The notes below the pieces were generated by a model, which saw only the letters and a program-made list of their open reading frames with translations, ran no database searches and had not been told where the DNA came from. From an uncultured Lentisphaerota bacterium (GTDB taxonomy: Bacteria; Verrucomicrobiota; Kiritimatiellia; CAIQIC01), in contig CAITZM010000116.1 in NCBI GenBank assembly GCA_903896925.1, positions 1-64,000 on the forward strand: a DNA stretch of 64,000 nucleotides, given 5' to 3'. The position numbers were made by a program, and so were the translations under genes. Of this stretch, positions 43,489-45,603 are shown piece after piece. The stretch's first letter is position 1. Every line of letters begins with the position of its first letter.

Positions 43489-44481
43489 TCAATACACCCT
43501 GAAATTCCGCCGGTGGTTCGAATCCGACATGTGCCCTGCCTGTTCCTTCTCATCCACCCGGAAGAAGGCGGTATGGATCACCGCCTGCTCGTGGACCAGG
43601 GCCGAGCCGGCGACGCCCGGCGCCTTGCAGCGGTGATCGGCGCCCAGGCCGATGGACTTGAACTGCTGTTCCGCGCAGGCGCCGGCTTCGGCGAGGAACG
43701 CGTGCGCCGTGGCCCGCACCGCGGCCAGGGACTTGGCCCGCTTGGGCTTGCGCGCCAACGCGTCCAGCACGTAGCTCCGGACCAGCTTGCCGTGCAGCTG
43801 GGCGAACGCCGGCGCCAGCGACACATAGTCGAACCCGACCGGCTCGCCGTTGATCAGCACCAGGATGCCCCGCTGTTGGGGCAGCAGCGGGAAGGACTGC
43901 AGGGCCGCGTCGATGTCCGTCTGCTTGGCCTCGAACACATCCCGCAGCGCGCCGGTCTTGGACTCGCCCACGGCGAGCTCGCAGGCCATTTCAGTGATCC
44001 CCTGCCAGACCTCGCCCTGATCCGAGGCGAAGCCCGAGTCGGCCGCCAGGTTTTTCGTCACGGAACGCGTCTTGCAGCCGCGCAGGCTGGCGTGCATCAC
44101 GTGGCCCGAGGTGCTGAAGGCCGGGGAGACGTAGGACCAGCGCCCCTGCTCCGTGCAGCTGACCGGCACATCAAGCGGTTTGCCGGCCGGGATCAGGAGG
44201 CTGGTGTTGAGCACCCGGTTCTGCTTGGCGCCGCAGACCTCCTCACCGTCCAGCAGGAGGACCGGCTGCGCCGCCTGGTTGGTGACGCGCAGCTCCGGCA
44301 CCGAACCGCCCACGCTGACCTCCGTGACCGTCAGCAGCCGCTGCGCCAGCGCCTCGACCAGGGTCAGGTACTGCGGGGAATGGTTGAGCGCCGTGAACAG
44401 CGGGAACACGGCGATATGTTTCGACCGCTGGGGATCGGTCAGCCGCAGCCCCGTCAGCAATTCCGTCAGCACTGTATTCAT
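43489..44481 (-). CDS. ARPP-1 / DUF6569 family protein
   Basis: VLLLDGEEVCGAKQNRVLNTSLLIPAGKPLDVPVSCTEQGRWSY. Confidence 0.82.
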   Translation of the reverse strand: MNTVLTELLTGLRLTDPQRSKHIAVFPLFTALNHSPQYLTLVEALAQRLLTVTEVSVGGSVPELRVTNQAAQPVLLLDGEEVCGAKQNRVLNTSLLIPAGKPLDVPVSCTEQGRWSYVSPAFSTSGHVMHASLRGCKTRSVTKNLAADSGFASDQGEVWQGITEMACELAVGESKTGALRDVFEAKQTDIDAALQSFPLLPQQRGILVLINGEPVGFDYVSLAPAFAQLHGKLVRSYVLDALARKPKRAKSLAAVRATAHAFLAEAGACAEQQFKSIGLGADHRCKAPGVAGSALVHEQAVIHTAFFRVDEKEQAGHMSDSNHRRNFRVY

Positions 44482-44536
44482 CTGGTTCTCCTTGCCGGGC
44501 GGTGACTCCGTCCCGACGCCCCCTATTTTATCGGCC

Positions 44537-44561
44537 CGGACAGACAAAGCTTGTCCGTCTG
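44537..44561. promoter_or_regulatory. Inverted-repeat operator candidate, site 1
   Basis: CGGACAGAC-aaagctt-GTCCGTCTG (7 of 9 complementary, 7-nt spacer). Confidence 0.6.
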
Positions 44562-44580
44562 AATTAAATCGCTTATTTTT

Positions 44581-44605
44581 CTGGCGGACGCTAATTGTCC
44601 GTCAG
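44581..44605. promoter_or_regulatory. Inverted-repeat operator candidate, site 2
   Basis: CTGGCGGAC-gctaatt-GTCCGTCAG (8 of 9 complementary, 7-nt spacer), 44 bp from site 1. Confidence 0.65.
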
Positions 44606-44628
44606 GCCCATTACCTTGGAGGCGCGCC

Positions 44629-45603
44629 ATGGAACGCAACAAGAGCCAGTTCTCGCGGTTGATGGAGTTGGACCGGCAGATCCGGGCCGGCAAGTATCCC
44701 AACTGCCTCACCTTCTCCAAGGCCTGGGAGGTCTCGCAGAAGACCATCCAGCGCGACATCGACTACCTCAAGTTCCAGCTCGACGCCCCGCTGGCCTACA
44801 ACCGGGTCGAGAAGGGCTTCTACTACACCGACCTCAACTGGTTCCTGCCCTCGGTGAGCCTGAGCGAGGGCGAGCTGTTCGCCCTGCTGGTCGCCGGCAA
44901 GGCGATGGAGCAGTACCAGGGGACGCCGGTGTCCAAGGAGCTCGAGCGCATCTTCGGCAAGATGATGAGCGGGATGACCGACAAGATCACCGTGCAGCCG
45001 GAGCTGGTGTTCGCCCGCTTCAGCTTCACCGCGCCGCCGTCCCGGCCCGTGGCGATCGAGACCTGGAAGACGATCGTCCGCGGGCTGGCCGGGCAAAAAC
45101 AGATCAAGCTCCTCTACAAATCGCAGAACGCCGAGCAACCGAAGCAGCACCTCCTGTCGCCCTACCACATCGCCAACCTGCAGGGCGAGTGGTACGTCTT
45201 CGGCCACAGCGACGTGGACGGGGAGCTGCGCCAGTTCTCGCTGGCGCGCATCCAGAAGGCCCAGCTGACCGAGCGGTCCTTCGAGCGGCCCAAGGATTTC
45301 GACGCGGCGGAGTTGCTCAAGCACACCTTCGGCCGGTTCGTCGGGTCCAACAAGCCCTACACCATCCGGCTGCTGTTTCCCAAGGAGGCCGCCGGCTGGG
45401 TGCAGGAGCGCGAGTGGCACAACGGGCAGAAGCTCCGGCCGCGGGCGCACGGCGCCATCGAGCTGGAGTTCCAGGCCCACGGCCTGTTCGAGGTATTCCG
45501 CTGGGTCATGGCGTGGGGCCGCTACGTGCAGGTCCTCGAGCCGCAGGAGCTCAAGGACAAGGTGCGCGCCGAGGTCGCCGCGATGCAGCAGAATTTCGCC
45601 TGA
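44629..45603 (+). CDS. WYL-domain transcriptional regulator
   Basis: N-terminal wHTH SRLMELDRQIRAGKYPNCLTFSKAWEVSQKTIQRDIDYLK; WYL region YHIANLQGEWYVFGHSDVDGELRQFSLARI. Confidence 0.9.
   Translation: MERNKSQFSRLMELDRQIRAGKYPNCLTFSKAWEVSQKTIQRDIDYLKFQLDAPLAYNRVEKGFYYTDLNWFLPSVSLSEGELFALLVAGKAMEQYQGTPVSKELERIFGKMMSGMTDKITVQPELVFARFSFTAPPSRPVAIETWKTIVRGLAGQKQIKLLYKSQNAEQPKQHLLSPYHIANLQGEWYVFGHSDVDGELRQFSLARIQKAQLTERSFERPKDFDAAELLKHTFGRFVGSNKPYTIRLLFPKEAAGWVQEREWHNGQKLRPRAHGAIELEFQAHGLFEVFRWVMAWGRYVQVLEPQELKDKVRAEVAAMQQNFA

Follow-up and report, generated by a model that had tools for sequence, protein, structure and literature searches.

A divergent ARPP-1 and WYL regulator gene pair with shared predicted operators in an uncultured Lentisphaerota bacterium

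ARPP-1 (DUF6569) proteins have, to our knowledge, no known activity, and a locus that sets one of them opposite a transcriptional regulator raises the question of what switches it on and what it is for. In the window, a stretch of 64,000 nucleotides of DNA from an uncultured Lentisphaerota bacterium, an ARPP-1 gene (43489..44481, minus strand) lies head-to-head with the gene for a WYL transcriptional regulator (44629..45603, plus strand), and the two ATG codons are exactly 147 bp apart. A sequence-only reading had put this distance at about 147 bp and proposed a regulated, self-contained stress or conflict module with ARPP-1 as its sole effector. As a candidate the unit is real, but the pairing itself is not new: ARPP + WYL is already listed as a conserved two-gene neighbourhood by Iyer et al. 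2022 (PMC9503650), which that reading left unmentioned, and the window locus is a further instance of it. As in the published neighbourhood, the two gene families adjoin without an ADP-ribosylglycohydrolase (ARG), and the ARPP protein carries the conserved Cys and Gln. The accessible text of that paper names the neighbourhood without operators, whereas here the dyads are mapped, are tied to the family of the regulator and also turn up ahead of unlinked ARPP genes. Such a conserved, mapped predicted operator offers a handle on when ARPP-1 is made, which genes are made with it and hence its purpose.

Both domain assignments of the sequence-only reading were borne out by Pfam. ARPP-1 (330 aa from the ATG) matched PF20208 over the whole model (residues 12-307; model positions 2-297 of 297; 315 bits against a cut-off of 27 bits; E = 6e-94). 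Its frame is intact, the version first proposed (352 aa) starting at an upstream TTG in the same frame, and no signal peptide is apparent on the 330-aa protein. An alignment of 19 sequences revealed the invariant residues E54, V61, G79, G84, Q87, R89, C109, E111, R114, W115, Q155, W159 and G205, including G79, G84, Q87 and R89 in motif 1 (GEEVCGAKQNR, residues 79-89; 44215..44247, minus strand) and C109, E111, R114 and W115 in motif 2 (PVSCTEQGRW, residues 106-115; 44137..44166, minus strand). The family hallmark of a conserved Cys and Gln is present as C109, Q87 and Q155; the invariants thus agree with the enzyme-like Cys and Gln of Iyer et al., and further residues are added to them. A PDB profile search with ARPP-1 found no relative, PADLOC returned no match to it, and an AlphaFold2 model from four input sequences (pLDDT 42) was too uncertain to show whether the family's duplicated beta-meander with an inserted beta-barrel is present. 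The chemistry of ARPP-1 is a guess. In PMC9503650, ARPP is proposed to act on ribose moieties, perhaps with covalent cross-linking as in SRAP, and HIRAN is described as a DNA 3'-end binding domain; HIRAN is fused to ARPP in two of the genomes analysed (G198 and G415), and from these fusions a DNA sugar may be an equally good guess at the substrate.

The regulator (324 aa) exceeded the Pfam cut-offs for both the WYL domain (PF13280, 46 bits; 45061..45264, plus strand) and a C-terminal WCX domain (PF25583, 64 bits; 45355..45585, plus strand). Its WYL domain contains R201-x-F203-x-x-x-R207 (45229-45249), which in an alignment is spaced like R183/F185/R189 of the CapW ligand site (PMC9122588). None of the Pfam HTH models fired on the protein, and a conserved segment (VSQKTIQRDIDYLK, the VSxKTIQRDI segment of the alignment) suggests a putative N-terminal winged helix-turn-helix (wHTH). 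The PDB profile search ranked PafBC first (E = 8e-26), with entry 8tp8, which we take to be DriD, among the next-ranked matches; PafBC and DriD share the WYL+WCX layout of the window regulator. BrxR (1e-11) and CapW (1e-7 to 1e-10) also matched, their similarity being confined to about residues 131-225, the WYL core, and the regulator was therefore not filed as an orthologue of either. PADLOC gave WYL-type matches and one 'Cas3c' model; the latter identity was set aside, since the whole WYL protein aligns to the first third of a 1009-position model. Neither the regulator nor ARPP-1 is a specific PADLOC defence effector.

Both ORFs had been taken to be genuine, and they are intact, conserved and under purifying selection. 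Compared with a locus of the same genus (L019, the same contig as G468:C226 and counted once), amino acid identity was 79% for ARPP (dN/dS 0.30) and 89% for the regulator (dN/dS 0.23). The divergent pair was found in all three ARPP-bearing genomes of the genus (the source genome, G000, together with G012 and G468) and in G198 of another class. The pairing is thus not unique to this genome, and its recurrence argues that it is not due to chance. In G198, HIRAN-ARPP and WYL occur together, whereas PMC9503650 lists these two neighbourhoods separately. Around the window pair, Pfam identified a GFO/IDH/MocA oxidoreductase, a xylose-isomerase-like barrel, a GH92 protein and uncharacterised proteins; no known defence gene adjoins the pair among the neighbours scanned, so that the locus is no defence island, and ARG and macrodomains were absent from the eight neighbouring proteins scanned with Pfam. 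An Rfam scan returned nothing.

The region between the two starts holds two dyads of the general form GACGGACA-N5-TGTCCGTC, which lie over a candidate WYL promoter. Both are 21-bp predicted WYL operators read on the minus strand: dyad 1 is GACGGACA-AGCTT-TGTCTGTC (in full GACGGACAAGCTTTGTCTGTC; 44539..44559) and dyad 2 is GACGGACA-ATTAG-CGTCCGCC (in full GACGGACAATTAGCGTCCGCC; 44583..44603). They lie 44 bp apart, and a spacing of 44-45 bp, typical of close relatives of the regulator, recurs at L056, L082, L116, L117, L118 and L124. The dyads are kept in L019 and, despite diverged flanks, in L021 and L024, and in the 7.2-Mb assembly dyad 1 alone matches GACGGACAN5TGTCYGTC perfectly. Read by eye, the candidate WYL promoter is TTGTCC (44551-44556), 17 nt and TATTTT (44574-44579) (44551..44579, plus strand; 8 of 12 consensus bases), which would put the -35 hexamer inside dyad 1 and the predicted start site inside dyad 2, a layout shared by L019. 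On the other strand, also by eye, the candidate ARPP -10 is TAAAAT (44525..44530, minus strand) with dyad 1 covering the -35 region, and TAAAATAGGGG, on the ARPP promoter side, is conserved in L019 and likewise at L082, the paralogous locus. A sigma-70 scan of the region gave no promoter at threshold, both candidates scoring below it, and the hexamers for WYL and ARPP are accordingly putative.

The regulator has a single paralogue in the window's genome, with 59% identity to it and two degenerate dyads 45 bp apart upstream. At this locus (L082:7565-10609, on contig C20 of G000), the genes that diverge from the paralogue encode a DnaB_C/AAA ATPase and a weak 23S-IVP-like protein, and the locus is a sister module in the same genome.

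The dyad is conserved with the regulator family. In a set of 45 family members, nearly all of them from the class, the exact GGAC-N7-GTCC pattern occurred at most 250 bp upstream of 20 genes, where the remainder of these loci would predict 0.57, and with up to one mismatch upstream of 31 against 4.4. The WYL subfamily is present in 69 of 240 genomes of the class, usually without ARPP as its neighbour. Its neighbours include RhuM/Fic, YhcG (DUF1016), HARE-Mrr with ZacA, PDDEXK, AAA and DnaB-like ATPases, and AbiEii-like proteins, and they lean to defence. The statistic is modest: in an unselected comparison (PADLOC, E < 1e-10), at least 5 of 36 adjacent proteins matched versus only a few of 36 distant ones, the latter to generic AAA+/IetA-type and DolB models.

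We then asked where the box stands relative to ARPP starts. Upstream of ARPP, its distance from the start is 60 bp in the window, 59 bp in L056, 81 bp in L021 and 63 bp in G198 (L024; distance from the predicted start Met67). It is also present 44 bp ahead of ARPP in G392 (L055) and, in G415, 66-85 bp ahead of three HIRAN-ARPP genes (L057, L058 and L059), in each case with no adjacent WYL gene; both genomes encode a related WYL protein elsewhere. Boxed cytosolic ARPP genes thus come from four lineages, two of them without an adjacent WYL gene, whereas none of 17 secreted ARPP genes had the box upstream (Fisher, p = 1e-4; p = 0.006 with lineages collapsed). Because the box precedes ARPP independently of adjacency, control of ARPP by the regulator finds its strongest evidence here, and this regulatory half of our reading is, as a prediction, well supported. 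The proposed regulated two-gene unit is likewise favoured by the dyads that the two starts share and by the box in front of ARPP genes without a linked WYL gene. That ARPP-1 is the sole effector fits this locus, where the next gene on its strand is 453 bp away, but not the relatives, which show HIRAN fusion, a DruE-like helicase and several boxed genes.

In G392, the boxed ARPP (L055:5987-6973) and the related WYL gene (G392:C450:64537-65523) share one contig about 37 kb apart, possibly a physical uncoupling of regulator and target.

Taken with these data, the known WYL repressors suggest how the unit may work. CapW and BrxR are dimeric repressors that act on inverted repeats over promoters and have a conserved WYL pocket (PMC9122588, PMC9122601). 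The inverted repeat of about 20 bp over a target promoter that characterizes them has its counterpart in the two 21-bp dyads over putative promoter hexamers. CapW, a CBASS repressor (PMC9122588), resembles the window regulator in having WYL+WCX with a predicted wHTH, a dyad over the promoter, the RxFxxxR spacing and a promoter region shared by regulator and target; it differs in controlling CBASS rather than, as predicted here, ARPP, and the match covers the WYL core only, the likeness of the boxes being one of layout and not of base-by-base alignment. The BrxR family (PMC9122601) likewise has diverse defence-type neighbours and 5-bp-spaced inverted repeats upstream of its own gene. Unlike BrxR, the window family has one box sequence family-wide that recurs on unlinked genes within G198 and G415, and the profile similarity is limited to the WYL domain. 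By full-length similarity the regulator is an orthologue of neither, and its unit would nevertheless work like theirs.

From the WYL+WCX layout and the RxFxxxR spacing shared with CapW/BrxR, we infer a ligand-released autorepressor, and we consider it probable (about 0.6) that such a CapW/BrxR-like WYL protein holds cytosolic ARPP-1 in check for a role in defence or repair. The product of 44629-45603 would be a dimeric wHTH-WYL-WCX autorepressor whose dimer, seated on the two dyads (GGACA-N5-TGTCC core), would block both its own promoter and that of ARPP. Binding of a ligand in the WYL pocket would release the regulator and allow ARPP-1 to be made; this ligand is probably either single-stranded nucleic acid or an ADP-ribose/nucleotide product that arises on damage or infection. 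ssDNA is a candidate because PafBC is the best profile match and PafBC and DriD sense ssDNA, and ADP-ribose is one because of the links to ARG. ARPP-1 would be a cytosolic protein with an invariant Cys-Glu-Arg-Trp/Gln-Arg centre, its substrate most plausibly a ribose or deoxyribose moiety (ADP-ribose, or a damaged or 3'-end DNA sugar).

The profile ranking itself speaks against an autorepressor, as the regulator is nearer to PafBC, a DNA-damage activator, than to BrxR or CapW. The pair may accordingly be a DNA-damage repair module, in which the WYL protein would sense ssDNA in the manner of PafBC/DriD, as activator or repressor, ARPP would handle damaged deoxyribose or 3' ends, and phage defence would be incidental. 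PafBC and DriD bind ssDNA (PMC11804915 and PMC12340889), and the HIRAN fusions and the lack of a surrounding defence island in the window also agree with such a module. However, boxed genes and family neighbours (Cas12b, DruE-like helicase, YhcG, RhuM/Fic, Mrr) lean to defence and not to core repair, and although PafBC and DriD are described as activators, the window dyads lie across the candidate promoter of the regulator's own gene, where an autorepressor would be expected to bind; we therefore regard this account as unlikely. Rather doubtful, too, is a clean-up of ADP-ribose or NAD, in which ARPP would act, as in the proposal of Iyer et al., on ADP-ribose freed from modified macromolecules, with the WYL protein sensing ADP-ribose. 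PMC9503650 describes systems in which ARG occurs with ARPP and with WYL or Nudix regulators; in G415 (L177) the box is followed by one small gene and then an ARG (272 bits), in G274 (L115) WYL, RhuM/Fic and ARG stand in line, and ARPP adjoins ARG on a Pimelobacter plasmid (L039). Against this, the scanned window neighbours include no ARG or macrodomain, and most relatives of the WYL gene do not adjoin ARG.

That a local WYL autoregulator has an ARPP gene beside it by chance, with no relation between them, would be in keeping with a WYL subfamily that is common in the class and usually apart from ARPP, and with the phylum's ARPP genes being mostly of the secreted VIT/VWA kind, without a WYL link. 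It is nonetheless very improbable, given the box close upstream of cytosolic ARPP in lineages with and without an adjacent WYL gene, and a pair kept in the genus even where identity to the window falls to 41% for WYL and 64% for ARPP (L021). The ligand-released autorepressor is thus preferred, and the conflict role first proposed for it is upheld in part: PADLOC-type neighbours of WYL relatives (RhuM/Fic, YhcG, Mrr, PDDEXK) and a boxed Cas12b support it, whereas the pair in the window has sugar-metabolism neighbours, no ARG among the neighbours scanned and no specific PADLOC effector.

Beyond the pair, the strict GGACAN5TGTCC pattern was enriched in G415 (35 sites versus 3 for a reversed-pattern control) and G198 (8 versus 1). 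Leaving out nine identical GGACATTGCATGTCC sites as a possible repeat gave a conservative count of 26 versus 3 in G415. Across 198 genomes of the class to which G198 belongs (summed from a per-genome table), GGACAYWWWRTGTCC had 57 sites compared with 6 for the control, at least 8 of the 57 falling 47-123 bp upstream of WYL genes. In G198, the exact box GGACATAAAATGTCC stands 122 bp before the start of a Cas12b gene (PADLOC, 325 bits; L201:5020-8357 on contig C111), which is unlinked to the WYL gene and truncated by the end of its contig, and a box stands 64 bp before an AAA ATPase; in G415, a box precedes HIRAN-ARPP and then a large DruE-like helicase. Tentatively, and with a little less than an even chance, a phylum-wide WYL repressor family with the GGACA-N5-TGTCC box may, in trans in some genomes (G198, G415), run a scattered immune regulon that reaches beyond its neighbour to ARPP, HIRAN-ARPP with the DruE-like helicase, ADP-ribosylglycohydrolase and even Cas12b; the window would hold the minimal, one-target version. 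If so, GGACA-N5-TGTCC would be an SOS-like box for immunity, a readable motif, and unknown genes behind it in these genomes would be candidates for new defence functions. In the literature searched, with most subscription journals outside it, we found neither this operator nor its place before unlinked ARPP and Cas12b.

A regulon in the source genome was rejected (2 strict sites versus 3 for the control; one at a gene start inside a gene run, one intergenic), and the switch in the window's organism looks local. The nine identical GGACATTGCATGTCC palindromes of G415 (contigs C83, C105, C122, C124, C203, C296, C329, C369 and C549) may be copies of a dispersed repeat and not operators. Several copies of small proteins (about 96-133 aa) lie 47-95 bp behind a WYL box in G415 (L057, L058, L177, L180 and L184), and Pfam gave no match for the two members scanned. 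At L115:4968-8034 in G274, the WYL, RhuM/Fic-like and ARG genes are on one strand with boxes upstream, and the middle gene resembles the RhuM/Fic protein of G136 at its start and in the PADLOC models that it matches.

Mobile elements yielded little. Viral contigs held one truncated and one secreted-type ARPP and no relatives of the WYL protein, the phage records searched gave no match, and plasmid records gave three distant matches, among them the Pimelobacter plasmid with an ARPP+ARG operon. The truncated fragment (L152:6079-6276, an IMG/VR contig) shares its contig with a reverse-transcriptase-like ORF (YVDD).

The commonest ARPP context in the phylum is a secreted-looking ARPP beside a VIT/VWA protein (L023, L027, L028, L029, L031, L032, L034, L035, L049, L052, L053, L060, L062, L064, L065 and L066), a context not found in the accessible part of the 2022 paper (PMC9503650). 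These proteins share the ARPP domain and invariant residues with the window ARPP, but differ in their signal-peptide-like N-terminus, VIT/VWA neighbour, absence of the WYL box and separate family lineage. A sigma-70 factor gene lies close by in related secreted-type loci (L025 and Granulicella L038). In a Fibrobacter-labelled MAG (L020:3946-6017), a TrmB-family regulator gene is followed by ARPP with stop and start abutting or overlapping, and the TrmB family is another regulator type for cytosolic ARPP.
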